A stretch of 64,000 nt of DNA from Paenibacillaceae bacterium (GTDB taxonomy: Bacteria; Bacillota; Clostridia; Lachnospirales; Lachnospiraceae), in the NCBI GenBank assembly GCA_015057705.1, contig SVDU01000023.1, forward strand, positions 1-64,000, in the 5' to 3' direction. Below the pieces are notes generated by a model. The model did not search any database, had not been told where the DNA came from, and worked only from the letters and a program-made list of their open reading frames with translations. This document shows positions 8,768 to 36,006 of the stretch, one piece after another (position 1 is the first letter of the stretch; each line of letters starts with the position of its first letter). The translations under genes and the position numbers were made by a program.

Positions 8768-9667
8768 TTATGACTGAATAAGAAAATAAGATTCCATGAT
8801 ATCCTTAAGCTTTTCTTTGTCCGTTTCTTTTAACGGAACCAGAGGAAGCCTGTATTTTTCTTCACACAGTCCCAATACGGATAAAGCCGCTTTCACCGGT
8901 ACAGGATTTACATCCATAAACATAGCATTCATAATGCGTAATAACTCTAACTGCATATCTCTGCTCTTTTTCATCTGTCCCTCAAAAAACAGTTGACACA
9001 TGGTATGCATTTCCTGAGGCATAATGTTGGCCAGGACCGAAATCACGCCCTTCCCCCCAAGAGACATAATTGGTACAGTCTGATCATCATTTCCAGAATA
9101 GAGATCCAGCTGGTCTCCGCAAAGAGCCGCAACTTTTGCAATATGGGAAATATTCCCGCCAGCCTCCTTCACAGCTCTTATATTGGGATGTTCAGAAAGC
9201 TTTAAATAAGTTTCAGGTTCAATATTGACCCCTGTACGCGTGGGAACATTGTACAAAATAATCGGAATATCCACGCGGTCTGCTATCGTATTAAAATGCT
9301 CCACCAGTCCATGCTGGGATGTTTTGTTATAGTACGGTGTGACCAGCAACAGTGCTGATGCTCCAAGTGATTGTGCCTTTCTGGAAAGCCTTACTGAGTT
9401 TGAGGTGGAATTGCTCCCCGTCCCCATAATTACAGGAACCCTGTGATTTACATAATGCACCACGAATTCCAGCAGATCTGTCTTTTCCTTCTCTTCCAGT
9501 GTTGAGGATTCCCCCGTGGTTCCGTTTACAACAATTGCATCTGTACCATTTTCCAGCTGAAATTTCAACAGCCGCTCTATAGCCACAAGGTCCAAATTCC
9601 CATGTTTATCCATAGGCGTAACAATGGCTGCAGCAGAGCCTTTAAAAATCCCATCATTCATAGACAT
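8768..9667 (-). CDS. dapA: 4-hydroxy-tetrahydrodipicolinate synthase
   Basis: 299-residue class I aldolase of the DHDPS family. It condenses pyruvate with aspartate semialdehyde. Schiff-base Lys167 lies in AVKEAGGN, Tyr139 in LYNVPTRTG, and the TTGESSTL motif is at 50-57. The product feeds lysine and peptidoglycan diaminopimelate synthesis and, via DpaAB, dipicolinic acid. It is divergent from dpaAB, with a shared 113-base promoter region. ATGs at codons 1 and 3 are both possible. Confidence 0.95.
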   Translation of the reverse strand: MSMNDGIFKGSAAAIVTPMDKHGNLDLVAIERLLKFQLENGTDAIVVNGTTGESSTLEEKEKTDLLEFVVHYVNHRVPVIMGTGSNSTSNSVRLSRKAQSLGASALLLVTPYYNKTSQHGLVEHFNTIADRVDIPIILYNVPTRTGVNIEPETYLKLSEHPNIRAVKEAGGNISHIAKVAALCGDQLDLYSGNDDQTVPIMSLGGKGVISVLANIMPQEMHTMCQLFFEGQMKKSRDMQLELLRIMNAMFMDVNPVPVKAALSVLGLCEEKYRLPLVPLKETDKEKLKDIMESYFLIQS

Positions 9668-9780
9668 TCATTCCTAAAAAATAGGTTCATACTAACAGAA
9701 ATATGACAAACATTCCCAGATGGTACCATACACAAATCATTTTTTTTATCATATAAACCAGTATAAGGAGTGATGACCGT

Positions 9781-10623
9781 ATGCATAAATTTCTTCTATT
9801 AGGCGGCGACTCAAGACAGCTTTATTTAAGCCGCATTTTAACTGAAAACGGCTTTTTTACTGTTCTTCATTCTGACGGAGACGACCCTGACTTCACAATG
9901 AAGGAAGCCATGGAAACCTGCAATATCATTCTCTGTCCTATCCCGTTCACCAAAGATAAAATCAGCCTGTTTTCTGACCATGAAATGAACGACCTTGGAA
10001 TTGGCAATCTCTTAAGCCATCTTACCTCCGACCATATCCTGTTTGGAGGCAATATTCCGGCATATGTGAAAGAATATGCCAGAAAAAATGAAATTGGCTG
10101 CTTCGACTATATGGATATGGAAGATGTCACCATAAAAAACACCATTGCAACTGCAGAAGGCGCCATTGCGGAGGCCATACGGTTAAGCCCGGGCTGTCTC
10201 CATCAGAGCAAATGCCTGATCACCGGTTTCGGAAGATGTGCCAAAACCCTGGCACTTAAGCTAAAAGGCCTCGACCTTACAATCACCATAGCAGGAAGAA
10301 AAGCAAACCAGCTGGCTCTTGCATCAGCCATGGGTTTTGAAACAATTTTATTAAGTGATTTAGAAAAAGATATAGGCAGATATGATTATATCTTCAACAC
10401 CATACCAGCACTGGTCATTGATGAGAAACTTGTCTCTCTGGCCTCCCGGCAGGCAACTATTATCGATATTGCCTCCGCCCCGGGTGGTGTGGACTTTGAA
10501 GCCTGCAGGCAGCAGGGAATCCGTGCAAAGCTTAGCCTTGGCCTCCCTGGAATCTATGCTCCCGAAACCTCCGCGAAAATTTTGTATGAAGCAATTCTCA
10601 CCTTTTTATCTCAAACTGTTTAG
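9781..10623 (+). CDS. dpaA: Dipicolinate synthase subunit A
   Basis: 280 residues; the N-terminal half is DpaA-specific (LGGDSRQLYLSRIL) and the C-terminal half is a Rossmann NAD(P) domain (GFGRCAKTLALKLKGL). With DpaB it makes dipicolinic acid in the mother cell for the spore core. AAGGAG lies 10 bases upstream of the ATG. dpaB follows after 15 bases. In Bacillus the operon is driven by sigma-K; here CATATAAAC near 9756 is only a weak resemblance to a sporulation -10. Confidence 0.93.
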   Translation: MHKFLLLGGDSRQLYLSRILTENGFFTVLHSDGDDPDFTMKEAMETCNIILCPIPFTKDKISLFSDHEMNDLGIGNLLSHLTSDHILFGGNIPAYVKEYARKNEIGCFDYMDMEDVTIKNTIATAEGAIAEAIRLSPGCLHQSKCLITGFGRCAKTLALKLKGLDLTITIAGRKANQLALASAMGFETILLSDLEKDIGRYDYIFNTIPALVIDEKLVSLASRQATIIDIASAPGGVDFEACRQQGIRAKLSLGLPGIYAPETSAKILYEAILTFLSQTV

Positions 10624-10638
10624 GCAAAGGAGTGCAAT

Positions 10639-11217
10639 ATGAAACTGGAAGGAAAAAAAGTAGGCCTGGCAATTACCGGGTCCTTTTGTACTTTTGACAA
10701 AATAGAAGAAGAAATAAAAGTTCTTGCAGATGAAGGGGCAGATATCTACCCCATTTTCTCTTCCAACGTCCAGACCACAGATTCCCGGTTTGGCAGCACA
10801 AAAGAATATATGGAACGAATTACTGAAATAGCAGGAAATAAGCCAATACTCCGGCTGGAAGAAGCAGAGCCTATTGGGCCAAAGGGATATTTAGACATCC
10901 TTCTGATTGCTCCCTGCACCGGCAATACACTGGCAAAGCTGGCAAACGGAATCACCGACTCACCAGTTCTTATGGCTGCAAAAGCACATTTAAGAAATGA
11001 GAAACCTCTGGTTATCTCTCTTTCCACCAATGATGCTCTCGGAATGAATTTTAAGAATATTGGCGTACTTTACAATGTAAAAAATATTTATTTTGTGCCT
11101 TTTGGCCAGGATAATCCCGTGAAAAAGCCTAATTCCATGATTGCCCGAACCGAATTAATCAGTAAGACGCTGGAATATGCACTGGATGGAAGGCAGATTC
11201 AGCCAGTGATTTTTTAA
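10639..11217 (+). CDS. dpaB: Dipicolinate synthase subunit B
   Basis: 192-residue flavoprotein-fold partner of DpaA. It has GLAITGSFCTFDKI at the FMN-type phosphate loop, IAPCTGNTLAKLANGITDSPVLMAAKAHLRN, and the C-terminal PFGQDNPVKKPNSM. Length and order match spoVFB/dpaB. It is translated from an ATG after AAAGGAG, and its presence implies an endospore former. Confidence 0.93.
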   Translation: MKLEGKKVGLAITGSFCTFDKIEEEIKVLADEGADIYPIFSSNVQTTDSRFGSTKEYMERITEIAGNKPILRLEEAEPIGPKGYLDILLIAPCTGNTLAKLANGITDSPVLMAAKAHLRNEKPLVISLSTNDALGMNFKNIGVLYNVKNIYFVPFGQDNPVKKPNSMIARTELISKTLEYALDGRQIQPVIF

Positions 11218-11219
11218 GA

Positions 11220-11256
11220 TTGACAAAATTATGGGTTAAAGAGTACCCAATGTCAA
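11220..11256. other. Nested inverted repeat after dpaB
   Basis: TTGACA/TGTCAA encloses TGGGT/ACCCA. It lies directly after the dpaB stop, but only an AAATAAAAT tail follows rather than a T run. It is either a weak terminator or an operator-like repeat at the left border of the lanthipeptide island. Confidence 0.4.
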
Positions 11257-11278
11257 AAATAAAATATGAAGTGAAACT

Positions 11279-11331
11279 GTACCCTAATAGTATGACGCAG
11301 AAAAAGAAGCTGTGTTAAACTGTTAGGGTAC
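11279..11331. repeat. 22-bp imperfect inverted repeat with 9-base loop
   Basis: The arms (11279-11300 and 11310-11331) begin GTACCCTAA and end TTAGGGTAC, and most inner positions also pair (AGT/ACT, CAG/CTG). It stands about 20 bases upstream of the lanR promoter. There is no T run, so it is not a standard terminator. An operator, a structured RNA end or the remnant of a small transposable element are all possible. Confidence 0.6.
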
Positions 11332-11351
11332 AATTTGTGAATTTTATTCTC

Positions 11352-11380
11352 TTGAATTTATTTGTTTCAGCGTATACACT
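11352..11380 (+). promoter_or_regulatory. Promoter of the lanR-lanK operon
   Basis: TTGAAT and TACACT with 17-base spacing, 36 bases upstream of the TTG start of the response regulator. Confidence 0.6.
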
Positions 11381-11415
11381 AAAAATAGAAAACTATAAGA
11401 TTAGGGGGACCAGAA

Positions 11416-12111
11416 TTGAACTATAATATTTTAGTAATTGATGATGATAAAGAATTGTGTTCTTTAATCAAGCAAAGTGTTGCAACAGAAGAAATAATTG
11501 CTGATTACTGCTACTCAGGCATGGATGGATTGGCTATTCTTGAAAAAAAGGAGTATCACCTTATTATCCTGGATGTAATGATACCTGGACTGGATGGATT
11601 CCAGACTCTTGAGAAAATACGTCACAAAAGCAGTATCCCAATTCTAATGCTAACGTCTAAAAATGACAGTGCCTCAAAAATCTTCGGTCTACGTTCAGGG
11701 GCTGATGACTATTTGACAAAACCATTTAATATGGAAGAACTAATTGCCCGAATAATATCTCTTATCCGAAGATACACCCGTTTTAATGTGACGGGCGACG
11801 TATCTCAGCCGCTTGCCTATAAAGGGTTAATCATTGATTTTGATAATCGAAGTGTTACTACAAAAAATGGCACTTTTGAACTACCTCCAAAGGAGTTTGA
11901 TATTTTACTATTCTGTGCAAAAAACCAAGGAAAAATATTAACAAAACAGCAGATATACGAAGAGGTCTGGGGTGAAGATTATGTATACGATGACAGTAAT
12001 ATTATGGCTGTTATCAGCCGTCTTCGAAAAAAAATAGAACCAGATTCAGGATCGCCGCTGTATATTCAAACCGTAAAGGGTATCGGTTACCGGTTTAATA
12101 AGGAGGTATAA
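11416..12111 (+). CDS. lanR: OmpR-family response regulator
   Basis: 231 residues. Receiver domain with IDDD (acidic pocket), phosphoacceptor Asp53 in ILDVMIPGLDG, and K105-region LTKPF; then a winged-helix DNA-binding domain ending YIQTVKGIGYRF. It starts at a TTG after AGGGGGACC. It is 2 bases from its histidine kinase and precedes a LanFEG-like ABC transporter, so it probably senses the lantibiotic or envelope stress and induces self-protection. The symbol is by context only. Confidence 0.88.
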   Translation: MNYNILVIDDDKELCSLIKQSVATEEIIADYCYSGMDGLAILEKKEYHLIILDVMIPGLDGFQTLEKIRHKSSIPILMLTSKNDSASKIFGLRSGADDYLTKPFNMEELIARIISLIRRYTRFNVTGDVSQPLAYKGLIIDFDNRSVTTKNGTFELPPKEFDILLFCAKNQGKILTKQQIYEEVWGEDYVYDDSNIMAVISRLRKKIEPDSGSPLYIQTVKGIGYRFNKEV

Positions 12112-12113
12112 AG

Positions 12114-13037
12114 TTGACACTGACATATATTCTAGGTTTACTTCTATGCATGTCACTTTTTTTTGGTGGAATTTGTTTTGCAAAATTAATAAGCGTCAGG
12201 CGGGAACTGCTGGAAATGGAAGAGGCCTTATCAGAAATTAAATCCGGTAATGGCAACCGAAAAATCCTGGCTGCCAGCAATGATTTAACTGCAGAACTCT
12301 CCTATAAACTAAATGAAATTGTATATAGGTACGAAGAACAAATTTATCAGTTCAGAGTAGCAGACGAAGCTAACCGCCAGCTTATGACCAGCCTTTCTCA
12401 TGATGTAAGAACACCGCTTACTACTCTGATTGGATATTTAGACGCAATACACAGGGGTATAGCATCTCCGGAAGATCATGAAAGCTATATTGAAACAGCA
12501 AGATTAAAGGCTCATGATCTAAAAGATTATATTGATATATTGTTTGACTGGTTTAAATTGAATTCCAGCGAATTCACTTTATCTCTGGAGCAAATTGAAC
12601 TTGCTGAGATGACACGTAATATCTTAAAAAACTGGGTTCCTATATTCGAAGAAAAGCATATCCATTTTGAAATAGAGATACCGGAAAAGCCTTTTCTGGT
12701 ATCTGTAGATCCTGAATGTTATGAACGAATTATAAATAATCTTGTCCAAAACGTTATCAGCCACAGCCAGGCTTCTGAAATAACGATACAGATGGAAAAA
12801 GAAGATACCAATATCGTTATTCGTGTAAAAGACAATGGAATTGGGATTGATGCTTCCGATCTGCAGCATATCTTTGAACGGCTGTATAAATGTGATAAAG
12901 GGCGCTCTGACAAGAGCAGTGGGTTAGGTTTGTCAATTGTCAGACAACTGGTAGAAAAAATGAATGGTATCATTGATGCAGAGAGTAAACCTAATTGTTA
13001 TACTATCTTTATTATCCGTTTCCGCACAGAAATATAA
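12114..13037 (+). CDS. lanK: Sensor histidine kinase
   Basis: 307 residues. One N-terminal membrane segment (about 3-24) and no large extracellular loop, then a HisKA domain with His96 in SLSHDVRTPLTTLIG and an HATPase domain (NNLVQNVISHS; DNGIGI; SSGLGLSIVRQLV). Such short-sensor kinases in Firmicutes often respond to peptide antibiotics together with a neighbouring ABC transporter. It starts at a TTG after AAGGAGG. The ABC operon starts about 100 bases downstream. Confidence 0.88.
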   Translation: MTLTYILGLLLCMSLFFGGICFAKLISVRRELLEMEEALSEIKSGNGNRKILAASNDLTAELSYKLNEIVYRYEEQIYQFRVADEANRQLMTSLSHDVRTPLTTLIGYLDAIHRGIASPEDHESYIETARLKAHDLKDYIDILFDWFKLNSSEFTLSLEQIELAEMTRNILKNWVPIFEEKHIHFEIEIPEKPFLVSVDPECYERIINNLVQNVISHSQASEITIQMEKEDTNIVIRVKDNGIGIDASDLQHIFERLYKCDKGRSDKSSGLGLSIVRQLVEKMNGIIDAESKPNCYTIFIIRFRTEI

Positions 13038-13066
13038 AGCCATATAGAAGAAAATACAAGGATCTT

Positions 13067-13112
13067 GCAAGGTTGAGGCAAGGTTAATGCAAGGTTGGGG
13101 TGTTAGTATTAT
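13067..13112 (+). promoter_or_regulatory. Triple GCAAGGTT repeat and -10 of the lanFEG operon
   Basis: Three perfect copies of GCAAGGTT start at 13067, 13078 and 13089, exactly 11 bases apart (one helical turn). TATTAT at 13107-13112 is a plausible -10. The last copy overlaps the place of the -35, which has no consensus. This is the geometry of tandem sites for OmpR-type activators, and LanR is the obvious candidate. Confidence 0.7.
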
Positions 13113-13138
13113 CTCAATAAAAAAAGGAGGTTTTCGTT

Positions 13139-14062
13139 TTGAACGAATTAATTATTGAAACAAAAAATCTTTCTAAACATTATGGAGAGCAGAAAAGTGT
13201 TGATAACTTGAATATTCACGTGAAACAGGGGCGAATCTACGGTTTACTTGGCAGAAATGGGGCTGGTAAAACAACTACCATGAAAATGCTCCTGAATTTA
13301 TCAAACCCTACTTCTGGGGAAATCCAGATATTTGGTGAAAACATACATGGTAATGAAAAAAAAATATTACCACGTATTGGGAGTATCATAGAATCGCCCG
13401 GATTTTATCCAAATCTGACAGGTACGGAAAATTTAAAAATTTTTGCTCTTCTTCGAGGAGTCTCAAAACGCAATGCAATTGAAAGCGCTTTAGAAGTTGT
13501 GGGATTACCATATAATGATAAGAAATTATTTTCACAATATTCACTTGGTATGAAACAGCGTCTGGCCATTGCTCTTGCTATTATGCATGATCCAGAGCTG
13601 CTCATTTTAGATGAACCCATTAACGGGCTTGACCCAATCGGTATCGCTGAGGTGCGCTCTTTTATCCGGGAACTATGTGAGGTAAAAAAGAAAACAATAT
13701 TAATATCAAGCCATATTCTTTCTGAAATAGCTTTACTTGCTGATGATATCGGAATTATCGATCACGGTATTCTGCTGGAAGAACAAAGTCTTTCAGAATT
13801 AGAAGAAAAAAACAGCAAATATATTCATTTTGTAGTATCTGATACCGCTCAGGCCACCAGAATCCTGGAAAGAGATTTTAAAACAGTGAACTTTATTGTA
13901 GGAGGGAACCACAGTATACGTTTATATGATGATAAGCTATCTGTTTCTTTATTAAACCGGACTTTTATAGAAAATGGATTAGATGTCTTAGAAGCCCATA
14001 CATGTGAAGATACTTTGGAAGATTACTTTAAACGTGTAACAGGAGGTGAAGGAATTGCGTAA
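13139..14062 (+). CDS. lanF: Lantibiotic self-protection ABC transporter, ATPase (LanF/BcrA type)
   Basis: 307 residues. Walker A GRNGAGKTT (38-46), signature YSLGMKQR, Walker B LLILDEPINGLDP and an H-loop ISSHIL. The Q-loop carries Glu85 (GSIIESPGFYPNLTG), the E-loop reported for LanF immunity ATPases, which separates it from ordinary exporters. It starts at a TTG after AAAGGAGG. It overlaps the first permease gene. It probably expels the lantibiotic from the membrane. Confidence 0.88.
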   Translation: MNELIIETKNLSKHYGEQKSVDNLNIHVKQGRIYGLLGRNGAGKTTTMKMLLNLSNPTSGEIQIFGENIHGNEKKILPRIGSIIESPGFYPNLTGTENLKIFALLRGVSKRNAIESALEVVGLPYNDKKLFSQYSLGMKQRLAIALAIMHDPELLILDEPINGLDPIGIAEVRSFIRELCEVKKKTILISSHILSEIALLADDIGIIDHGILLEEQSLSELEEKNSKYIHFVVSDTAQATRILERDFKTVNFIVGGNHSIRLYDDKLSVSLLNRTFIENGLDVLEAHTCEDTLEDYFKRVTGGEGIA

Positions 14063-14828
14063 TCTTCTTTATGCGGAGTTAATAAAATTTAAAAGAAGAA
14101 AAGTTTTTTCATTTGGAATATTGGCAGCATTAATTTTTCCTGTTTTTAATTCTGCCCTGTTATCTGAATCTAATTTTGCAAGTATCCAATCCGGAGTAAG
14201 AGAAGACAATGCTTTTTTACTTTTAATGCCTATGCTCATCATTCTGGCATCAAATCTTTTTTTTGTGGAACAGGATAGTAACACTCTTAAAAATCTACTT
14301 TGTATTCCTATTCCTCCCCAAAAACTGGTGCTTACAAAACTGATAGTCTTATTGTTTTTTTCTATCACATTCCAAATTACTGGTTTTGTTGTCAGTACCG
14401 TAATTGCCATCATGCAGAATATACCGATCATTCAACCTTTTTTTCAATTTTTTCTAACTGCCTCAACAGGCATATTGATATGGGCAGCGGCTCTCCCATG
14501 CATTGTTCTGGTTGTTTGGTTTAATAAAAGCTATTTACTATCTATTATCATAGTTTTCTTTTACACGCTTATAAACTATGTCATGCATTTCAGCGATGCA
14601 ATAATGATGCAACCTATTGGATTACATGCTGGTACATTAATGCCTGTCCCAATGATATTTAGATGGCTATATCAGTTTTATACTCCGGTTGGAGATATAC
14701 AAACTGCTTTTTACCACCGCTTTAGTCAATATTTTGCATCTACACCAATTTGCTTTTTTGTACTTCTGCTGGAGGCCTTTGTATGTATTGGTATCATGTT
14801 CTGGATTTACAACAGCAGGGAAAATTAG
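14055..14828 (+). CDS. lanE: ABC-2 permease (LanE-like)
   Basis: About 257 residues with six hydrophobic segments and the N-terminal amphipathic start LLYAELIKFKRRK typical of lantibiotic immunity permeases. I prefer the TTG at 14055 (AGGAGG 8 bases upstream); a GTG at 14046 lies inside that site. The start overlaps the lanF stop by 8 bases, implying translational coupling. It partners LanF and the following permease. Confidence 0.82.
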   Translation: MRNLLYAELIKFKRRKVFSFGILAALIFPVFNSALLSESNFASIQSGVREDNAFLLLMPMLIILASNLFFVEQDSNTLKNLLCIPIPPQKLVLTKLIVLLFFSITFQITGFVVSTVIAIMQNIPIIQPFFQFFLTASTGILIWAAALPCIVLVVWFNKSYLLSIIIVFFYTLINYVMHFSDAIMMQPIGLHAGTLMPVPMIFRWLYQFYTPVGDIQTAFYHRFSQYFASTPICFFVLLLEAFVCIGIMFWIYNSREN

Positions 14829-14843
14829 GAAAGGAGCTCCTTC

Positions 14844-15650
14844 ATGATCAGCATTATAAAAACAGAGTTTATAAAATTGAAACGCTTTCATATTCTGCTT
14901 ATCGGTATGATTGGAATGACTTTTCCAGCTATTTTGTCAGTTTTCACCCAATCTGTCTCTACTCCCGAAGCGCAGATACAAAATTTTAACATATCAGCCT
15001 TGTTAGATAATACCATCTGGAACAATGCAACTATTTTTATGCCTGTCACCTTTACATTGATTGGGGGTTACTTAATTAACCGAGAATATACAGATGATAC
15101 TCTTAAAAATATTTTTACAATTCCTATCAGTTTTCAAAATCTTATCTTGGGAAAACTGATTGCTATGAGTATATTAAGTGTGCTGTTTGGTTTCTATAGT
15201 TTTTTAGTAACTATAATTGTGGGATTAGTGACTGGTATAACAGGGTTCAGCGCAGTTGTACTAGTGAAAGGTCTTTTGCAGATGCCCGGTATGGCTCTCT
15301 GCACATTTATTTCTGTTCTTCCAATCATTACCCTCACAAGCCGAAAACGTGATGCTTTTATGGGTGGTGTTATTATATCTTTTTTATTTGGATATTGTTC
15401 TATGTTTATAAAAAACGCTACTCTACGCAGTTTATACCCTATATTATCTGGTCTGACTGTAATCCAGTTTGATACAAGAATATACATGAATACCACCGAA
15501 CCCGCTAATCTTTTTATGTCTGTTTTAACTTTGGCTGCCGTACTTCTGCTCACAAGCGAAATTATTCTATTATCTGGACCACCCCAAAAAGCAACAAAAA
15601 GCAAAAAAAATACTATGTTTTTACGGCAAGGTCAAAAAAGAGAGAGCTGA
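14844..15650 (+). CDS. lanG: ABC-2 permease (LanG-like)
   Basis: 268 residues with about six membrane segments; it opens MISIIKTEFIKLKRFHILLIG and shares the EYTDDTLKNIFTIPISFQNLILGKL element with the previous permease (there NTLKNLLCIPIPPQKLVLTKL). The two are therefore diverged halves of a heteromeric permease. The ATG follows AAAGGAG, 15 bases after lanE. It completes a LanFEG-type immunity transporter. Confidence 0.82.
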   Translation: MISIIKTEFIKLKRFHILLIGMIGMTFPAILSVFTQSVSTPEAQIQNFNISALLDNTIWNNATIFMPVTFTLIGGYLINREYTDDTLKNIFTIPISFQNLILGKLIAMSILSVLFGFYSFLVTIIVGLVTGITGFSAVVLVKGLLQMPGMALCTFISVLPIITLTSRKRDAFMGGVIISFLFGYCSMFIKNATLRSLYPILSGLTVIQFDTRIYMNTTEPANLFMSVLTLAAVLLLTSEIILLSGPPQKATKSKKNTMFLRQGQKRES

Positions 15651-15689
15651 CACACAGGCTCATAATTAATGATAAGGAGAGTTTTTATT

Positions 15690-15956
15690 ATGAAAGAAAA
15701 ATTATTGAGCACTATTGCAGTGGTTACTATTTTAATTCCTTTTACAGTGATTTTAATTTGGAACGCCAATAACCCTAATGCAACCGGAATTATAATTGGA
15801 TATTGCATTTTTACCACATTTAGTTTCTTTTATACCCTTTTTCTATTTGCAGTAAAGCGATTCAGGAATACTAATATAAAGGTTGCGCTAGGTGTTAACA
15901 GCCTGTATCTCTTATGCATTTTGTCATTTGTAGTATTACCTCATCTTATGAGTTAA
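15690..15956 (+). CDS. Small membrane protein in the immunity operon
   Basis: 88 residues, three predicted membrane helices (about 8-26, 33-53, 65-84) with a basic KRFRN loop. I chose the ATG with AAGGAG 10 bases upstream; an ATG 21 bases earlier has no site. It resembles no family that I can name. As the last gene before the terminator of the lanRKFEG run, it could be an accessory immunity protein (a LanI/LanH analogue); this is inference from position. Confidence 0.65.
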   Translation: MKEKLLSTIAVVTILIPFTVILIWNANNPNATGIIIGYCIFTTFSFFYTLFLFAVKRFRNTNIKVALGVNSLYLLCILSFVVLPHLMS

Positions 15957-15967
15957 AAAAATTAATG

Positions 15968-16004
15968 CCCTCATATAGGATAGAAATAGCGTCCTATATG
16001 AGGG
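15968..16004. terminator. Bidirectional terminator between the two lan units
   Basis: Perfect 13-bp stem CCCTCATATAGGA/TCCTATATGAGGG with an 11-base loop. It lies between the convergent immunity operon and lanT, serving both. Confidence 0.75.
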
Positions 16005-16009
16005 TATAA

Positions 16010-18124
16010 CTAGAGCTTAGAGTAAATTAATCTATAATACAATGATTTGTTATTCAATAATTCCTCATGCTTTCCTGATTCAATTATTTTTCCAGATTCT
16101 ATCACATATATCCTGTCAAAATCCTGAATCGTATTTAAGCGATGGGTAACTACAATCTGGCTGACACCTTCTTTTTTTATATTTTCATAAATCTTCTTCT
16201 CCGTAATTGGATCTAAATTACTTGTTGCCTCATCAAATACTATAACTTCTGGATCAAGTGCTACTGCCCTTGCAATTGCAATTCTTTGCTTCTGTCCTCC
16301 AGAAATATTCTGACCATTTTCGCCAATAAATGTGTTAATACCCATTGGACAACCTTGAATAAAGTCCTGCATTTCTGAAACCCTGGCGGCTTTTTCAAGT
16401 TTTTCATCAGACAGGGAGTTCAGAACATCAATGTTATCCTTAATTGAACCACTAAAAGCAACTGGAGTCTGAGTAACAATTGTGAATATCCTATCAATAT
16501 CATCTCTATTAATTTCTGTTATGTCAATGCCATTTAAGGTTAATTTACCTGTGTAACTAAATAAAACATTCATTATTATTTTTAATAATGTTGACTTTCC
16601 ACTTCCTGATGTACCTACTATCGCAATCCGTTCTCCAGTTTTTAAATCAAAGTTAATATCAGATAATTCTTTTTTATTACTGTTTCCATATGAAAAACTG
16701 AGTCCCTCCAGTTTTAGATGCTCAAAATGCTCAATTGATATCTGACCATTCTCAGCATTTTCATTATATGTAAGAAATTCTTCCATTCTTAATAATGTTT
16801 CTTTTAAATTACCAAGCTGGGGAATTACAATTGATACTGTATTAAACGGGGCCATAAAATAAGATGATAATGTCACAAAGGCAATAAGCCCCCCTATCGT
16901 CATTTCTGTCAGAGAAACAAAGTATGATCCACAGATATAAATTAAAAGTGGAGTTATAATACCTATTGAATTAATACCTGATTCAAGAAAATTCCCAGTA
17001 ATGCTCTTTTTCCGTAATAAATCTATCACCTTATCATAATCATGTTTAAGACCTGTATTTAATATTTCACTTAATCTCATACATCTGATCTGCTGGATAT
17101 TCACTAAAGTATCAACCATTTTTCCCTCTAACTTACTTCTCTCCGCAATATAATTTTTAACTAGTTCATCTAACCTTTTTTTAATCAGACTGATATATAT
17201 TAATTGAAGAAAAATTATTATTAAAGTTATTAAAAATAAAACAAATGACTGGCTTATCATAAAAACAGCACAAATAATTCCTGTTATTATTTCTACAAAG
17301 GTTGATATAAGTAACGCTGACACAAAATCATAAATGTCATTTACACTGTTAAATCTATATTGCAGATCTCCAGAAGAGTGACTTTCATAAAATTTTAAAT
17401 TAATGCGAAATAGTTTATCAATCATATGGTGAATTGTTTCTTTATATAAACTATTTTGTACCAAAAGTATTATGTTTTGTTTTAGCAGATTCGCACAAAA
17501 AAAAGCAGTCATTATGGAAAAGGCAATTCCCAAATACATAAGAATTATATACCCACCAGAATTTTTTCCCATTGAGTCAACAATTTTTTGTATTGTAAGT
17601 GAAGGTAACAAAACAATACACTGAGTCAATAGTGTCAATATAAATGCACTTATTATAGAAGAAAGTTTTACCTTAATAAGTGAACCTCTATAATTCCTAT
17701 TCTTTTTTTTGATATCCTTTGTAGGAACGATCTTAATAATATATCGTTCACATTCATTAAGCAAATCCTGAAATGACATATGTCTTAAACCATTAACCGG
17801 ATCATTTATAAAATATTTATTTCCCACTTTATGTGTTACTACAAAATAATGGTTACTTTTTGTACACATAATAAGCGGTAAATTTACGCTTATATTTTCT
17901 TCCACTAAAAAATCTTCATAGGCCGTAAATTGAAATCCATACTCCTCAGCAATATATTTCATATCAGAGAAAGATAATCCATCACGGCCAATGTTTAAAT
18001 TAGCTCTTATATCATTTTGATTAAATTTACTACCGTAATACTGAAAAATCATTGTTAAACATGAAATTCCGCAATCTGTTGTCCCTAATTGTCTAATCAT
18101 AGGAACCTTTTTCTTTTTGGGCAT
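16010..18124 (-). CDS. lanT: LanT: lantibiotic peptidase/exporter ABC protein
   Basis: 704 residues. N-terminal C39 peptidase with Cys18 (LGTTDCGISC), His92 and Asp108 as a plausible triad; six-helix exporter domain about 160-440; ATPase with Walker A GTSGSGKST, signature ISGGQKQR and Walker B VIVFDEAT. It cuts the leader after a double-glycine-like site and exports the core peptide. It begins 4 bases after lanM, so the pair is translationally close. No separate LanP protease is present or needed. Confidence 0.95.
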   Translation of the reverse strand: MPKKKKVPMIRQLGTTDCGISCLTMIFQYYGSKFNQNDIRANLNIGRDGLSFSDMKYIAEEYGFQFTAYEDFLVEENISVNLPLIMCTKSNHYFVVTHKVGNKYFINDPVNGLRHMSFQDLLNECERYIIKIVPTKDIKKKNRNYRGSLIKVKLSSIISAFILTLLTQCIVLLPSLTIQKIVDSMGKNSGGYIILMYLGIAFSIMTAFFCANLLKQNIILLVQNSLYKETIHHMIDKLFRINLKFYESHSSGDLQYRFNSVNDIYDFVSALLISTFVEIITGIICAVFMISQSFVLFLITLIIIFLQLIYISLIKKRLDELVKNYIAERSKLEGKMVDTLVNIQQIRCMRLSEILNTGLKHDYDKVIDLLRKKSITGNFLESGINSIGIITPLLIYICGSYFVSLTEMTIGGLIAFVTLSSYFMAPFNTVSIVIPQLGNLKETLLRMEEFLTYNENAENGQISIEHFEHLKLEGLSFSYGNSNKKELSDINFDLKTGERIAIVGTSGSGKSTLLKIIMNVLFSYTGKLTLNGIDITEINRDDIDRIFTIVTQTPVAFSGSIKDNIDVLNSLSDEKLEKAARVSEMQDFIQGCPMGINTFIGENGQNISGGQKQRIAIARAVALDPEVIVFDEATSNLDPITEKKIYENIKKEGVSQIVVTHRLNTIQDFDRIYVIESGKIIESGKHEELLNNKSLYYRLIYSKL

Positions 18125-18128
18125 ATTA

Positions 18129-21100
18129 TCACCTCATATTAACTGCTAATACACATGGTAGATCTTCCGATAAATCTCTAAGTAGCGAGTACCCGATTCC
18201 AGACATACCATTCATAAAGCCTAATGAATAATAACCATACAGAGAACTCCCCCCCAAGCACTTGTCTTGGGCGATACTCCCTACTATTTCTTTTCTTATT
18301 TTTTTAATATCTATCTCAAAGTTTTTATCACCGAGTTTTTTACAATATTCTTGTATAATCTCTGTGTTTCCAATATTACCATGACATAAGCAGTTATTAT
18401 TACTAATACCATTATGATAAACGGTTTCAATAGCATTCTGAATATCCTGTAGGATTAGTTTTTTGCATTTATCATCACTGATACTTAACATGCCTATTCT
18501 TCCCAATAGAATTCCTGGTGCACCATGGCACCATGCAACTGTATAAATATTTTTATCAGATATTTTTTCACCTTTAAAGTGCCGTTCATCTCTCCAGTTT
18601 TTATACGTGTTGTCATAAAGAGTTTGTTCGAACTCCAACCCTTTTTTAATTGCATTTAAAGTATAATCATTTTTTGTATAATCCCATAATTTAGTCAGAG
18701 CATAAATAATTCCCGCCGTTCCATGAGACATTCCCGCAAGCGGAGACATTTTAGGATTGCCTGTCCAACCTCCATTATGATCCTGAGATACTATCAACGT
18801 ATCACCGGCCTGCTGGGCCAGTAATAAATAGGACTTATTATTCGTAATCTCATACATTCCAATTAGGGCAATTATGGCTCCAGAATTTCCGTATACCAAA
18901 TCATACTTTTTATCATTTTGAATACCTACTTCCAAAATGTCTACATGATGAACCGCATACTCTAAATATTTTTCTTGGTTTGTAATCTTATACAGCAGGC
19001 AATATGTATAAACAAGACCAGCCTCTCCATTAAAAATGCCACTATCTTCATCTTTAAGAATCTTCTTATCTTCCAGTAAGCTGTCTGTATACTGAAACAA
19101 TGATTCTGCTATTGCATTTAAAACCTGCTCATATTTTTCACATTGAAAAACTTTATTAATAGAAGCAAAAAATATAGCTATACCAGCCAAACCTTCATAT
19201 AGATAAACGGATATAGGTCGTATATCCCACGAAAAATCATCATCATCACCAAGAGGAAGTACATCAATCCAGCTAATATCTTTTTTATTCTTACCCCACA
19301 CGGCTTTGCTAATAAGATAATCGGCAATTTTTTTAACTGTTTCTTCGCATTCAGACTCATATGACAAAACAGATTTATTTGGAATAATATATTTTATCTT
19401 TGAATTTCTTTCATTTGTTTTATCCACATCATCCAATGCAATATTTATAAACATCACCTGTTTTTCCAAATCGGCATTGTTTAACTCCATTACTTTTTGA
19501 CATACACGTTCAATACTTGTAAGTGAAAAATAATTTTCAATACACTCACCCCTGCCATTTCTTAGTACGGTCTCATTTGCCATAACTGTAAAATACGGGA
19601 TATCCATATGTAGCATATCGTTCACTTCATGTTTAATTATATCTTTAGATTTATTAGAGGCTGCACTGTCTTTGTATAAAGAACATAAAAACAATTCTCT
19701 ATCTTTACAATCCTGAAGGAAATCCGGATGATAGGACAGATGCAAAATCATACTGTATTTTTGAGTATCTTGTATTAGGTGTCTTACTTTTAAATCACCA
19801 AAACTACTTAATAGATCACACATACTATTCTTATTAGCAATAGCATATTTATATGCATGACTAAATCCCTCCACAATATTAGCTGAAAATTCTGCAGCGG
19901 GCACAAATAAATCATTTAACCTGGCCAGATTATCCCGTTCCTCTTTCACAGGATTTTTATACTCAAGATGCATATTAGATGTATACTCATCGACAATATG
20001 GGGAATTTTAAATGGGAAAAGCGTTCCACCCTGCCCCCCCACTGCACTCATATCAATTCCTTGACCGTTCTTATCAAATCTTTTCTTAGGTAAAAGTCCA
20101 GAAGACATAACCGATTGTCTTAGCATGATATTTATGCTATCTCTTGCATACTCCTGGTCAGAAACATTCCAATTTTCCAATATGGTTTCTGCGTCTATAA
20201 TTTGGGGGTACTCACCATTTGCTATTAAGTTTTCCTCATGAAAATCGTTTGCATTAAGAATATAGCTAATAAATATTAATGCTCCAAACCTATAATAATA
20301 TCGCTTTAACTGTTCATAGCTTCTACAGCAATTACTTTCTATAAACTCTTCCCAACCATAATTTCCACAATCAAGTATATTAAACTCTCTTAAATTATGT
20401 AAAAGACCAGGGTTTATAAAATTAATGGTTTTTTGCAAATATACTTCTGCTTTTAAACTTCTGGATTTATAAACTAATTTATTCTTATTCTTAAGTGCAA
20501 GTATAAATACAGTTTCTCCACCATTATGAGAATCTGATGTATCTGATTTTAAGTTTTCAATAAATAAGTTCTTGTCATTAATATCAAAGTTTTTACATAT
20601 TTTTTCCCAATCATTGTTTAATCGATTAACAAACGATATGTAGCATCTATTAGTAATTAAAATAGATTCAAATACTAACCGTTCCAAACCTGGATATAAC
20701 TGAAAAAGCTTTGCTATATAATTTCTATCTTTTAAATAATCTTCATTAAACTGCAAATATTGCTCAGAAGGAGTTCCCTCTAAAAATCCACTCTCTTTAC
20801 ATATATACATTTCAAATATTAAGGTTCTTAAAGATACACTTCCAAGTTTGTCCAGTAAAGCTCTTGCATAACTTTCTATAATACTTTGCTGTAAATCGGG
20901 AAGTTCTTTTTTTAATGTATACACTCCAAATTGAAGAAAATTTATATAAAAACTCGAAAAAAACATTTTGTCAACCGGAATTGTAGCATTTTGAGGTAAA
21001 TCCAACTGGTACTCTTTATATAAAACCATTATTTGACTCAATTGATCCATATCCTGTGTAAATATAGGTTCAGTATACTTTGGAAATAAAATAGTTTTAA

Positions 21101-21242
21101 ATGAGTTTCCATATACCGTCGGGAAGACATGCATATCTACACCTGTCAATATCTTCTTCCAGTAAGCTAAAACCTCCTCTTGTCCCCTTGTTTCTTCCAA
21201 TATTTTTCTCTCTTTTAAATAGTAGCTCTTTATTGATATCAT
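18129..21242 (-). CDS. lanM: Class II lanthipeptide synthetase LanM
   Basis: 1037 residues, usual LanM length. The N-terminal dehydratase domain (DUF4135; kinase-like NDFHEENLIANGEYPQIIDAE) phosphorylates and eliminates Ser/Thr. The C-terminal LanC-like cyclase has zinc ligands Cys905 (WCHGAPG), Cys953 and His954 (CLCHGNIGN), with SHGTAGI and GEAGL repeats of the alpha-barrel. It is more AT-rich than flanking housekeeping genes, consistent with transfer. It follows lanA by about 80 bases with no terminator between them. The ATG follows a GGAG-like site. Confidence 0.97.
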   Translation of the reverse strand: MISIKSYYLKERKILEETRGQEEVLAYWKKILTGVDMHVFPTVYGNSFKTILFPKYTEPIFTQDMDQLSQIMVLYKEYQLDLPQNATIPVDKMFFSSFYINFLQFGVYTLKKELPDLQQSIIESYARALLDKLGSVSLRTLIFEMYICKESGFLEGTPSEQYLQFNEDYLKDRNYIAKLFQLYPGLERLVFESILITNRCYISFVNRLNNDWEKICKNFDINDKNLFIENLKSDTSDSHNGGETVFILALKNKNKLVYKSRSLKAEVYLQKTINFINPGLLHNLREFNILDCGNYGWEEFIESNCCRSYEQLKRYYYRFGALIFISYILNANDFHEENLIANGEYPQIIDAETILENWNVSDQEYARDSINIMLRQSVMSSGLLPKKRFDKNGQGIDMSAVGGQGGTLFPFKIPHIVDEYTSNMHLEYKNPVKEERDNLARLNDLFVPAAEFSANIVEGFSHAYKYAIANKNSMCDLLSSFGDLKVRHLIQDTQKYSMILHLSYHPDFLQDCKDRELFLCSLYKDSAASNKSKDIIKHEVNDMLHMDIPYFTVMANETVLRNGRGECIENYFSLTSIERVCQKVMELNNADLEKQVMFINIALDDVDKTNERNSKIKYIIPNKSVLSYESECEETVKKIADYLISKAVWGKNKKDISWIDVLPLGDDDDFSWDIRPISVYLYEGLAGIAIFFASINKVFQCEKYEQVLNAIAESLFQYTDSLLEDKKILKDEDSGIFNGEAGLVYTYCLLYKITNQEKYLEYAVHHVDILEVGIQNDKKYDLVYGNSGAIIALIGMYEITNNKSYLLLAQQAGDTLIVSQDHNGGWTGNPKMSPLAGMSHGTAGIIYALTKLWDYTKNDYTLNAIKKGLEFEQTLYDNTYKNWRDERHFKGEKISDKNIYTVAWCHGAPGILLGRIGMLSISDDKCKKLILQDIQNAIETVYHNGISNNNCLCHGNIGNTEIIQEYCKKLGDKNFEIDIKKIRKEIVGSIAQDKCLGGSSLYGYYSLGFMNGMSGIGYSLLRDLSEDLPCVLAVNMR

Positions 21243-21297
21243 ATTATTTTCTCCTCAATTCACAATAAATACCTGCACCATTCAAACCTAATAATTA

Positions 21298-21327
21298 ATA
21301 TGTACTATTTTAATATGTACTATTTTA
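21298..21327. repeat. 15-bp tandem duplication at the lanA stop
   Basis: ATATGTACTATTTTA occurs twice in perfect tandem, and the second copy includes the TAA of lanA. It may be a recent slippage duplication. It creates no hairpin, so readthrough into lanM is expected. Confidence 0.75.
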
Positions 21328-21522
21328 TTTAGGACAACATTTTTTAAGATAAGTACCATAATAACATTCTGCTGTTGCTGTACATACAACACCGCCAGAC
21401 ATTCTAAGTTCTCCAGCACCTGCTGAAACTCTGTTTAATTCTGCCTCTTCCATTTCTTTCATAACATTACCAACTGGATTAATAAAATTAATTCTTGTCA
21501 CTGCATTTCTCATATTATTCAT
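21325..21522 (-). CDS. lanA: Class II lanthipeptide precursor peptide
   Basis: 65 residues. The leader (to about residue 35) is acidic near its end (MKEMEEAELNRVSAG), with Leu at -7 and Val at -4 if cut after Ala34-Gly35. The core carries SGGVVCTATAECYYG and ends KKCCPK. CTxTxEC is the lipid II-binding motif of mersacidin, plantaricin C and the lacticin 3147 alpha peptide. The core has four Ser/Thr (42, 48, 50, 57) and four Cys (47, 53, 62, 63), so up to four (methyl)lanthionines. Start: ATG after AAAGGGG. Too short for many gene finders. Confidence 0.93.
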   Translation of the reverse strand: MNNMRNAVTRINFINPVGNVMKEMEEAELNRVSAGAGELRMSGGVVCTATAECYYGTYLKKCCPK

Positions 21523-21602
21523 ATTAAATTCCCCTTTCGCTTGTTAGAATAGTGCAGGTACTTATTCTAAATTGAGCTTTATTACTCTTTAAATATGTTT
21601 AA

Positions 21603-21608
21603 ATTATA
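21603..21608 (-). promoter_or_regulatory. lanA promoter -10
   Basis: TATAAT preceded by TGT on the minus strand, about 80 bases before the lanA ATG. No consensus -35 is present at 17 bases, which suggests an activator-dependent promoter. Confidence 0.55.
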
Positions 21609-21638
21609 ACATTTAAACAATGTTTTTTTTCTTTTAAT

Positions 21639-21671
21639 GTAACTTTTACCATTATAGGTGTAACTTTTACC
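21639..21671 (-). promoter_or_regulatory. 21-bp-spaced direct repeat upstream of lanA
   Basis: GGTAAAAGTTAC occurs twice (21639-21650 and 21660-21671) with a 21-bp period, about 30 bases upstream of the TATAAT. The spacing (9-bp core, 12-bp gap) is that of LytTR-type regulator sites, and the core AAAGTTACA fits most of that consensus. No LytTR gene lies in the window, so the regulator is unlinked or is LanR binding differently. Confidence 0.65.
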
Positions 21672-21706
21672 TTTTTTTTGATTATTTTATTAAATATTAA
21701 ATAAAA

Positions 21707-21749
21707 AATAAGTTCAAACACTTGTATCTTTACAAGAGCCGAACTTATT
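21707..21749 (-). terminator. Terminator of the GNAT gene, right border of lan island
   Basis: AATAAGTTC+CTTGTA pairs with TACAAG+GAACTTATT, followed by TTTTTTATTT on the minus strand. Confidence 0.75.
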
Positions 21750-21785
21750 ATTTTAATCTTTATTTTGTCTACCATTCTTTTACAT

Positions 21786-22310
21786 TTATCTGCAATAGAT
21801 CCGATTTTTATAATCCCACATACCACTGGTGTCCTCAATGTTATAACTCATGAGGTAGTGGCTTCTTGATGTTCCATAAATGATAAATCCATGCTTCTCA
21901 TAAAGTTCTGCAAAAGGAGCTGACTGGTAGACCATCAGTAAAACAGGTTTTTTAGTCCCATCGGACAACTGAGTAATAAAATCAAGAAAATTATCTAATA
22001 GTTCCTTTTCATGACCGGACTCAGACAATGTTACTGAGACATCTGTTATCTGGTCCGGCTGCTCCTTATATGTTAAGAACCCTGTGATTATCCCATTTAA
22101 CCTGACGCTCCAAAAACAGGCATCTTTTCTGGATCTGTGAAACAGGTCATCAGCGATAATCATTTGTATCTCTTCAACCCAGCCACCATAGTACTGATCT
22201 ACAAATGGTTTTAAAAATTCTTTCCTTATTTTAACATACTGCTCCAGGTCCTCTTCGGCAACTGGTTCTATTGTATACCCATCGCCAATCAGATCTTCAG
22301 ATAATATCAT
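21786..22310 (-). CDS. GNAT-family acetyltransferase
   Basis: 174 residues. The GNAT fold is seen in the N-terminal YTIEPVAEEDLEQYVKIRKEFLKPFV helix region, the central FWSVRLNGIITGFLTYK strand pair and PFAELYEKHGFIIYGTS, a common C-terminal GNAT signature. The acetyl-CoA loop (RxxGxG) is poorly conserved. Substrate unknown. AAGGAGG precedes the ATG. It stands alone between the lanthipeptide island and the fructose PTS genes, with its own terminator. Confidence 0.8.
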   Translation of the reverse strand: MILSEDLIGDGYTIEPVAEEDLEQYVKIRKEFLKPFVDQYYGGWVEEIQMIIADDLFHRSRKDACFWSVRLNGIITGFLTYKEQPDQITDVSVTLSESGHEKELLDNFLDFITQLSDGTKKPVLLMVYQSAPFAELYEKHGFIIYGTSRSHYLMSYNIEDTSGMWDYKNRIYCR

Positions 22311-22413
22311 GCTTCCTCCTTACCAGCTACGGTCTGGATTCCTTCTATTTCTACCATTATATAAACAGTCCGGGTAATTATTCTTTTTGGGTTTCTTTTT
22401 GCAGCATAGATAT

Positions 22414-23265
22414 TCAGAAACCTCTTCCGCTGCTTTTGCAAACCCAGATCTTATCCTGTACATAGCGTTTTACCAGTTCTTTCCCCATTTTCCCGTAAGC
22501 TTTCGGATCTATCACGGAATTATCTTCATTCAGAATCCTTTTCACCCCATTACTGAACGCAATCCTCAGATCCGTGGCGTAATTTACCTTACAAATGCCT
22601 TCCTGAATACAGCTTCTTACAACCTCATCCTCTACGCCAGATGTTCCATGAAGTACCAGAGGAACAGGTACACACTTTTTAATTTCTCCCAGCAGATCCA
22701 GACGAATGCTGGGTGCCCCCTTATATACTCCATGTGAAGTTCCAATTGCCACTGCCAGAAAATCAATTCCAGTCTTCTCTACAAATTCCGCTGCCTGAAC
22801 TGGCGAAGTAAGACCGGATTTCCTGCTGCTCATTCCATCCTCCTTGCCTCCCACGCACCCCAGCTCCGCCTCAACCGGAACCCGGCAGGGGCGGCATATC
22901 TCTACAACCCGTCTGGTCAGTCCTGTATTCTCCTCCCATGGTAGTTGTGAACCATCAATCATAATAGAGGTATACCCTTCCCGTAATGCCTGAACTGCCA
23001 GTTCAAAGCTGCTGCCATGATCCAGGTGCAGAGCAACCGGGACAGTAGCTCTCTCCGCCACCGCCTTTACATTGGCATAGTAAAGATTGAAACCTGCATA
23101 TCTGACGGTAGACGGTGTTGTCTGTAATATGACAGGCGACTGCATCTCCTGCGCAGCCTCTACTACCGCCATGACCATCTCCATATTTTCTACATTAAAA
23201 GCTCCGACAGCATAATTTCCTTTCTGTGCATCAAGCAGCATTCCTTTTGAAGTAACTAATGGCAT
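22414..23265 (-). CDS. Class II ketose-bisphosphate aldolase
   Basis: 283 residues of the zinc-dependent FbaA/GatY/KbaY family: metal-site HLDHGSSFE, VEAELGCVGGKEDG, and phosphate-binding LVLHGTSGV and KVNYATDLR. It cleaves fructose 1,6- or tagatose 1,6-bisphosphate into triose phosphates. It is the last gene after the PTS and phosphofructokinase genes (10-base gap), so the unit imports a ketose as its 1-phosphate, phosphorylates it at C6 and splits it. Confidence 0.92.
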   Translation of the reverse strand: MPLVTSKGMLLDAQKGNYAVGAFNVENMEMVMAVVEAAQEMQSPVILQTTPSTVRYAGFNLYYANVKAVAERATVPVALHLDHGSSFELAVQALREGYTSIMIDGSQLPWEENTGLTRRVVEICRPCRVPVEAELGCVGGKEDGMSSRKSGLTSPVQAAEFVEKTGIDFLAVAIGTSHGVYKGAPSIRLDLLGEIKKCVPVPLVLHGTSGVEDEVVRSCIQEGICKVNYATDLRIAFSNGVKRILNEDNSVIDPKAYGKMGKELVKRYVQDKIWVCKSSGRGF

Positions 23266-23275
23266 CTTTTTTCTC

Positions 23276-34371: not shown

Positions 34372-34504
34372 TTTTACTTCCTCCATTTTTTATTATTATC
34401 TTTAAAAAGATACCGTGGTTAACAGAAAAGCCCCTTCTCCTGGCTTTCTTAGATTGAGAGAATCTGAATTTCTCTTTTATTTACCTGTTATTTTACTTAT
34501 ATTT

Positions 34505-34562
34505 AACTAATATATCAGTTCAAATATAGCCACATAATATACTAATAAAGGTTCTTAGTCAA
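34505..34562 (-). promoter_or_regulatory. Promoter and palindrome upstream of livK (system A)
   Basis: Minus-strand TTGACT (34557-34562), 17 bases, TATTAT (34534-34539). Just downstream is AACTAATATATCAGTT (34505-34520), an imperfect palindrome suited to a repressor, plausibly the GntR protein encoded upstream. The remainder of 34372-34778 is AT-rich and holds only this site and the gntR terminator. Confidence 0.65.
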
Positions 34563-34703
34563 GCTATTTTCTGTATATTTTATATATATATTCTTAATTG
34601 TATAATATTTGCTTGGTATATTTGCATATTTGAAACATTTTATAATTCTTTACTTTTTATGCCATTTGTTTTGCAACAGATACTTTTTCTGTGAGCAAAA
34701 AAA

Positions 34704-34744
34704 GAATGCTGAAAATGTGCTTTTTAGGCATATTCTCAGCATTC
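34704..34744 (-). terminator. Terminator of the gntR gene
   Basis: GAATGCTGA/TCAGCATTC arms with further pairing inside, followed by CTTTTTTT on the minus strand. Confidence 0.8.
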
Positions 34745-34778
34745 AATATTAATTTACGTATTCATCTATTTTATAATA

Positions 34779-35447: not shown

Positions 35448-35460
35448 ATCTGCCTCCTTC

Positions 35461-35997: not shown

Positions 35998-36006
35998 CTC
36001 TTTTCC

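Follow-up and report, generated by a model that had tools for sequence, protein, structure and literature searches.

Is a lantibiotic locus whose biosynthesis, export and immunity genes are all open also a complete one, and do its production and its immunity answer to the same control? The question is raised by a block at 11416-21522 of a 64,000-nt window (the whole stretch of DNA analysed, positions 1-64,000 of its contig; the genome that carries the block, one of Lacrimispora type, is G000). By its protein families and motifs the block is a class II lantibiotic island, and an initial annotation, made from the letters alone, described it as complete, with its own immunity and sensing unit. 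As a whole, we consider it quite probable that the block encodes a new plantaricin C-type lantibiotic, is governed by two control circuits, arrived by allele exchange and encloses lanA in an mRNA stem, where all that concerns transcript and peptide is deduced from the DNA. The locus is real and probably a working one. It is not complete, because the LytTR regulator that would match its lanA promoter is absent here and present in Lacrimispora amygdalina src4 (G004) and in G343, a genome of the same family from outside the genus.

A plantaricin C-type lantibiotic locus

The + strand carries a response regulator (RR), a histidine kinase (HK), LanF, LanE, LanG and a 95-aa membrane protein, and the − strand carries LanA, LanM and LanT. 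The features of the block and its borders are as follows.

11274-11336: left border hairpin, 27-nt arms, 81% complementary (fold z −8.2 against shuffles)
11352-11380, +: putative RR promoter, TTGAAT-17-TACACT (sequence, by eye)
11416-12111, +: response regulator, receiver and OmpR/VanR-like DNA-binding domain (Pfam/NCBIfam)
12114-13037, +: VanS-like histidine kinase, one predicted N-terminal membrane helix (Pfam/NCBIfam, hydropathy)
13055-13096, +: 11-bp repeats of (T)GCAAGGTTNNN, putative RR binding site (pattern search, 25 genomes)
13139-14062, +: LanF-type ATPase with E-loop (Pfam/NCBIfam; motif)
14046-14828, +: LanE-type ABC-2 permease (Pfam)
14844-15650, +: LanG-type ABC-2 permease (Pfam/NCBIfam)
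15669-15956, +: small membrane protein, 95 aa, about 3 helices; likely start 15690 (88 aa)
15965-16007: shared convergent hairpin, 17 bp (fold z −6.0 on +, −4.3 on −)
16010-18124, −: LanT, C39 peptidase-ABC exporter (Pfam/NCBIfam; motifs)
18129-21242, −: LanM synthetase, DUF4135 and LanC-like (Pfam/NCBIfam; motifs)
21254-21287, −: 3' arm of a 34-nt inverted repeat, adjoining the lanM ribosome site
21325-21522, −: LanA precursor, 65 aa (NCBIfam)
21543-21576, −: 5' arm of the 34-nt inverted repeat, in the lanA leader
21603-21608, −: TATAAT of the lanA promoter, 29 nt past the LytTR-type box
21638-21667, −: LytTR/AgrA-type box, AAAGTTACA-N12-AAAGTTACA
21703-21753, −: right border hairpin, probably the terminator of the GNAT-like gene (fold z −4.5)

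Much of the initial annotation is borne out by these features: all frames are open and oriented as it stated, the two halves converge on one terminator-like hairpin, similar structures stand at both borders, and the LanM, LanT C39 and LanF E-loop motifs are intact in the sequence. The block is also more AT-rich than its neighbours, with 27-38% GC (1-kb windows) vs 42-49% just outside (9001-11000 and 22001-25000); the adjacent genes themselves have 41% (dpaB, a name taken over, like dpaA, from that annotation) and 38% (the GNAT-like gene, the neighbour on the opposite side). GC at third codon positions is lowest in lanA (0.14), lanT (0.23) and lanM (0.26). A terminator scan over the region found 5 vs 6.4 expected, no excess, and a consensus promoter and terminator scan gave little or no excess over shuffles and is not used as evidence.

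On its match to NF000539 (35.5 bits, cut-off 29), the LanA precursor is a member of the plantaricin C family. Its leader ends in ELNRVSAG, of the ELXXBXG type, and cleavage after SAG would leave the predicted core AGELRMSGGVVCTATAECYYGTYLKKCCPK, with four Ser/Thr (Ser7, Thr13, Thr15, Thr22) and four Cys (Cys12, Cys18, Cys27, Cys28), none to spare. LanM would dehydrate the former and close them onto the latter, giving four rings with nothing left, and LanT would cut after SAG and export the peptide. The CTATAEC of the core fits CTxTxEC, the lipid II motif of the mersacidin group, and the peptide probably binds lipid II. In an excerpt of PMC11877530, another class II peptide is described as having a lipid II motif like that of mersacidin, containing Thr, Glu and Cys.

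For plantaricin C, encoded by Lactiplantibacillus plantarum LL441 and like plasmids, the part of PMC6107846 consulted prints the core as KKTKKNSSGDICTLTSECDHLATWVCC and gives the positions modified in the solution structure as 7, 12, 13, 15, 18, 23, 26 and 27; its text has Ser at position 18, where its printed core has Cys. By hand alignment with that core, all eight positions have counterparts in the window's core, the first five with the same numbering. Both precursors match NF000539 and share S7, C12, T13, T15, E17 and C18, as well as Thr, Cys and Cys near the end, whereas the remaining core is dissimilar and the window's has PK after its last Cys. The window differs from the plantaricin C locus in that its LanFEG genes lie on the opposite strand and come with a VanRS-like pair of their own, that its lanA promoter is of LytTR type and that a 34-nt stem surrounds lanA.

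Against TIGR03897 (cut-off 304), LanM reaches 848.8 bits; it has the motifs WCHG (904) and CLCHG (951), which we take to be the zinc ligands of the LanC-like cyclase; the CHG motifs align with those of LicM2, its nearest solved relative by sequence (392 bits). LanT consists of C39 (Peptidase_C39, 2.6e-24), ABC membrane and ABC ATPase domains, and its DCGISC, HYFVV and NDP motifs, all found, are presumably the C39 peptidase residues. A bifunctional LanM, a C39-type LanT and a precursor with a class II leader, as in class II lanthipeptide clusters, are thereby all present.

Whether the product is a known one had been left to searches, and the collections searched returned no match for it. The sole LanM relative from a scan of named genomes was that of L. 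amygdalina src4. Outside the genus, LanM relatives are at most 34% identical (26 of 397 family genomes, own included, match at 1e-30), those of plantaricin C-type plasmid loci 33%; IMG/VR yielded no LanM relatives and phage records two distant ones. Among plasmids, the nearest precursors belong to plantaricin C-type loci, with 41.7% identity over 36 aa (E = 2), and to Priestia, where a plantaricin C family gene reaches 50% over 41 aa (E = 0.004). A precursor search of 299 family genomes returned, apart from lanA itself, a single weak frame interrupted by two stops, and NF000539 is matched above its cut-off in 8 of the 397, own included, where the other precursors read are unlike the window's LanA. 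No second lanA copy with its flanks was found in family genomes, IMG/VR or phage records, and the open-licence literature searched holds no description of this peptide or of any class II lantibiotic from Lacrimispora; an excerpt of PMC12506125 assigns a nisin variant, of class I, to a Lacrimispora sp. The peptide is new to the collections searched, and its plantaricin C-type kind is already known.

Immunity and its probable VanRS-like circuit

LanF carries the motif IIESPGF, a glutamate E-loop that we take to be the mark of LanF proteins, and stands with two ABC-2 permeases, as in transporters of the LanFEG/CprABC type. Three profile scores weigh against these assignments. Against TIGR03740, the gallidermin-type protection ATPase, LanF reaches 242.6 bits, below the cut-off of 309.75; judged by motif and neighbours, it is a protein that works like LanF though outside that subfamily. 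The best NCBIfam model of the RR is VanR (NF033117; 210 bits, cut-off 350), and the HK scores 175 bits against VanS (NF033091; cut-off 400); because both fall below their cut-offs, we call the pair VanRS-like only.

In the available part of PMC5786555, CprABC-CprRK of Clostridioides difficile and LcrSR-LctFEG of Streptococcus mutans are described as lantibiotic resistance operons. There, as in the window, a LanFEG-like ATPase with two permeases adjoins a two-component system, and the window's relatives, like CprABC-type operons, carry the module without biosynthesis genes. Unlike CprK, which that source draws with an extracellular loop, the window kinase has one predicted helix (residues 5-23, by simple hydropathy) and no such loop; its signal therefore probably reaches it inside the membrane or by way of the transporter. 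Unlike the CprABC-type operons described there, the window's module is joined to a producer island and has an 11-bp GCAAGGTT box.

This box, between kinase and lanF, consists of the 11-bp repeats GCAAGGTTNNNGCAAGGTT. The exact repeat pair occurs in 23 copies in 12 of 25 genomes (backward-pattern control, 0), and by coordinates all 23 sit between kinase and lanF; in G343 it lies between the kinase and a permease preceding lanF. A search of the window found no such box at lanA, and on the same search a reading of lanA's own box as VanR-like was rejected. Nine of the 12 genomes have no lan biosynthesis gene in the stretch fetched around the module. We infer that the GCAAGGTT box is the RR's site and that the two-component system probably controls LanFEG alone, inducing it through these repeats; in relatives this resistance unit stands alone.

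Nisin-type loci autoinduce via their own two-component system. By analogy, the RR/HK pair could be the sensor-regulator of the whole island and autoinduce immunity and lanA together, the more so as it sits inside the block and moved with it, and NisRK-FEG is counted among such two-component/transporter systems in the excerpt of PMC5786555. The distribution of the box, its occurrence in genomes without biosynthesis genes and the different, LytTR-type box at lanA all speak against such a role, which we regard as improbable. Of the immunity and sensing unit that the initial annotation had ascribed to the island, the LanFEG part is thus present, whereas the sensing part probably belongs to the resistance module: its box is confined to the kinase-lanF interval, and of the 25 genomes six have the pair and LanFEG at this site, and three others at a different one, with no lan biosynthesis genes alongside.

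The small membrane protein, which has no Pfam family above its cut-off, is found in 3 of the 25 genomes, each time beside a LanFEG module, and is a candidate accessory immunity protein; with LanFEG it would keep the peptide off the producer's membrane. A role as biosynthesis partner was rejected, since G009 has a relative beside LanFEG without lanM. That module (G009:C1, ~3,396,700-3,401,730, L161) is a stand-alone RR-HK-LanFEG of 48% GC without lan biosynthesis genes, which also holds a lipoprotein-like frame (by eye) and the relative of the small membrane protein (53-54%).

A LytTR-type promoter without its regulator

According to an excerpt of PMC6193735, LytTR operons carry a pair of 9-bp direct repeats, separated by 12 bp, immediately before the promoter, and this layout is found at lanA. 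The box AAAGTTACA-N12-AAAGTTACA has one match in the window at ≤3 mismatches, where 0.05 would be expected. In L. amygdalina both repeats are exact, while lanA and the TATAAT are gone; at the plantaricin C-family lanA of G343 the box has 2 mismatches (scored as AAARTTACA) and a TATAAT at 27 nt. Genome-wide, 12 of 20 sites could be read. A TATAAT follows at 28-29 nt in six of them, namely at lanA and at five further sites, of which two adjoin a LytTR gene on contig C29; of the six without it, two show TATAGT at 28.

Several counts tell against a LytTR-type box. At ≤3 mismatches the 20 sites in the genome compare with 26 in the backward control, so that the loose count is uninformative. At ≤2 mismatches there is none at the plantaricin C-like lanA locus of G011, nor in five family LanM loci with a LytTR-like gene (L164, L166, L167, L169, L171). 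The case therefore seems to lie with the near-exact sites and their fixed −10 spacing, and on these lanA has a LytTR/AgrA-type promoter, under which lanA, lanM and lanT would be expressed. In the own genome, such a box with TATAAT also precedes a SPASM-like maturase fragment (weak Pfam match) at C16:20335 (L187, −), which seems to be without its N-terminal part and is followed by ABC transporter-like frames, perhaps another decayed operon for a ribosomally synthesized and post-translationally modified peptide (RiPP).

No LytTR regulator gene is among the frames of 11217-21786. The dpaB-RR spacing is 198 bp in the window vs 1.5 kb in L. amygdalina, where the 1.5 kb encodes a response regulator of LytTR type (PF04397) and the first part of a GHKL kinase, a remnant that shares 28% identity over 88 aa with the complete G343 kinase (E 2e-10, search of the stretch alone). 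In G343 a LytTR protein (50.6%) and a whole GHKL kinase lie downstream of lanT, so that a single stretch (L172) unites VanRS-like pair, box, LanF (65%), plantaricin C-family LanA, LanM, LanT, LytTR and GHKL. Besides this intact pair, G343 differs from the window in its LanM (28%), in having three permeases, one of them before lanF, and in an ordinary hairpin between lanA and lanM. Of the 25 other family genomes with a LanM match, nine loci were read, and six have LytTR-like regulators in the fetched stretch, five of them only 22-26% identical.

That the LytTR pair was lost in the own strain appears the simpler reading; a gain in L. amygdalina instead would strictly also fit, and tells against it. 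The island's own regulator would then have gone with the LytTR-GHKL pair, which in L. amygdalina is half broken, and the lanA operon would here depend on a different LytTR regulator of the cell or else stay silent. The nearest LytTR protein of the own genome, at 41% identity and beside AgrB, adds to the points against. An agr-type locus lies on C26 from 136,918 (L173:6919-9572), with a LytTR regulator, a sensor-kinase-like frame and AgrB, and with a LanF-like ABC ATPase (44%) ~3 kb past agrB. Its LytTR regulator is a candidate regulator of lanA; Agr control of a LanM-like protein is reported for Clostridium acetobutylicum in an excerpt of PMC10301443.

Might the island instead be silent or decaying, on its way to the state of L. 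amygdalina, with resistance kept and production lost? The absent regulator would fit, and so would the sister, which is already without lanA, its −10 element and 223 LanM residues while LanFEG and RR/HK are open. Yet lanA, lanM and lanT are intact in the window, the ratio of nonsynonymous to synonymous divergence to the sister is 0.12-0.13 for lanT and lanM, inside the 0.04-0.18 of other genes, and the genome has other LytTR-type promoters with the same geometry, a hint that regulators of this kind are active in it. We think decay rather unlikely, though it deserves to be kept in mind, and prefer a working locus.

An exchanged allele between dpaB and the GNAT-like gene

To place the block on the chromosome, dpaB and the GNAT-like gene were located in 25 congeneric genomes and the gaps between them fetched. 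The full island is present in the own genome only (1 of 25). In L. amygdalina the same site holds an island with proteins 76-94% identical and the same LytTR-type box (L004), from which lanA and LanM residues 1-223 are gone and in which the LytTR regulator is present and the GHKL kinase truncated. Six genomes (G003, G007, G014, G015, G021, G024) have RR-HK-F-E-G alone, with proteins 66-81% identical to the window's; the gap is short (~70-430 bp) in 12 and 0.9 kb in one (G017). In two (G008, G020) the gap is filled by 5.7-5.8 kb of other cargo that matches none of the island's proteins (frames read for G008 only), and in two more (G012, G018) the GNAT-like gene was not found. At E 0.001 five of the six resistance-only genomes have no LanM match anywhere; G003 has three distant ones (25-32%).

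The initial annotation had proposed comparing this spacing to find the empty site. Short gaps do exist, but most close relatives are resistance-only, and the short gap of G013 (~126 bp) is a deletion scar, because it keeps the resistance-only-type RR promoter before jumping to the GNAT end.

Trees and synonymous divergence (dS) tell where the block came from. A tree of dpaB and the GNAT-like gene groups the window with G007, G013, G014, G015, G021 and G024 (100/100), the branching within this group being unresolved, whereas RR and LanF group it with G004 (100/100) and the six resistance-only modules with one another (100/100). Between window and G014, dS is 0.156 (dpaB) and 0.205 (GNAT) outside the block, and 2.67 (RR), 2.80 (F) and 1.91 (E), saturated, inside; between window and G004 it is 0.51-0.76 inside and 0.59-1.28 outside, and between G014 and G021 it is even (0.16 for dpaB, 0.20-0.21 for RR, F and E). 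The close relatives therefore inherited the resistance-only allele with their chromosome, and the window's allele came from elsewhere. In keeping with the claim that this class II locus with its LanFEG-type transporter is foreign to the strain's lineage, the block seems to be an exchanged allele, related to that of L. amygdalina, in place of a resistance-only block, and would have arrived by exchange between dpaB and the GNAT-like gene.

The left border hairpin is also present at the L. amygdalina island and is missing from resistance-only alleles, which have a different, GC-rich hairpin after dpaB; the hairpin after dpaB thus belongs to the incoming allele, and the left joint would lie between 11217 and ~11274. 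A stretch like the window's RR promoter precedes the RR in both L. amygdalina and the resistance-only alleles. An origin as a mobile element was rejected, as none of the ten proteins scanned is an integrase or transposase and the trees better fit allele exchange through flank homology.

An inverted repeat around lanA

The initial annotation missed an inverted repeat that encloses lanA, with 29 of 34 positions matching between an arm in the lanA leader (21543-21576) and one that ends at the lanM ribosome site (21254-21287). In 300 dinucleotide shuffles of the 651-nt region the count never rose to 29 (maximum 26), and the 366-nt RNA folds at −83.6 kcal/mol vs −64.0 ± 4.4 for 100 shuffles (z −4.45), the arm duplex having −42.7 kcal/mol. 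Three of the five DNA mismatches are G-U in RNA, so that 32 of 34 positions pair, and the stem also takes in GAG, the first half of the lanM GAGGAG. Testing upstream against downstream flanks, with gene starts set mechanically and letter shuffles of the upstream flank as control, gave z −6.8 at the window's lanA vs −2.7 to +1.7 at 15 other lanA rows, 13 of them distinct (G343, L108 and L109 agree), and no stem of this type was seen at those 13 loci. In G011 and G343 a strong local hairpin follows lanA, which the window is without. The stem was seen in one genome only, which limits the case for an RNA function. The arms have no further copy in 25 genomes at ≤3 mismatches, and a dispersed repeat was on that account rejected.

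Two inverted arms that flank lanA exactly and occur nowhere else in the 25 genomes could also form a DNA inversion switch, flipping lanA on and off. We find this very improbable: the arms are 85% identical rather than identical, none of the ten proteins scanned is a recombinase, and both the G-U pairs, which raise the pairing in RNA, and the abutment of the 3' arm on the lanM ribosome site point elsewhere. Most likely the repeat works as an RNA element: in the transcript it would enclose lanA in a long stem and set it apart from lanM; in relatives a simple hairpin may do the same.

How could such a stem work? One speculative idea, which we would not put high, is that the arms form a processing stem cut by RNase III or another nuclease, which would free lanA as a stable mRNA and open the ribosome site of lanM. 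Substrate and enzyme could in this way be made in unequal amounts without a partial terminator, with the LytTR regulator borrowed from the new host after the allele exchange. Excision of lanA from its operon would then resemble the processing of the rRNA precursor.

Other observations

Outside the lantibiotic block, the window has a second AT-rich stretch at 34001-36500 (31-36% GC), and the GNAT-like gene has no Pfam family match. Beyond the window, the own genome holds a second RiPP-like cluster on C26 at ~251,950-258,030 (L095:3951-10034, −). It comprises a 95-aa frame whose Nif11-like leader is weak (below the Pfam cut-off) and whose core is rich in Ala/Ser/Thr and has no Cys, a YcaO protein (639 aa), an FMN reductase, a methyltransferase and a 719-aa protein that resembles a LanM dehydratase and matches LanC only over a short piece at the end; G003:C92 has a 721-aa frame like the latter.

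Significance

The novel parts of this locus are the stem and the loss of the regulator; its product is new to the collections searched and of a known kind, a plantaricin C-type lantibiotic with a lipid II motif and, as predicted, all four Ser/Thr used. Its interest lies in the record of exchange and decay at one site, in a split regulation of which one half is missing, and in the stem around lanA. Short gap, deletion scar, resistance-only module, full producer and producer decayed to resistance-only form a natural series at a single site, which makes it directly testable whether immunity comes before production, and what is lost first. The split control, with a VanR-like box for immunity and a LytTR-type box for production, predicts which genes answer to which signal. 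The stem around lanA, if true, would be a new way to set the ratio of precursor to enzyme in a RiPP operon.

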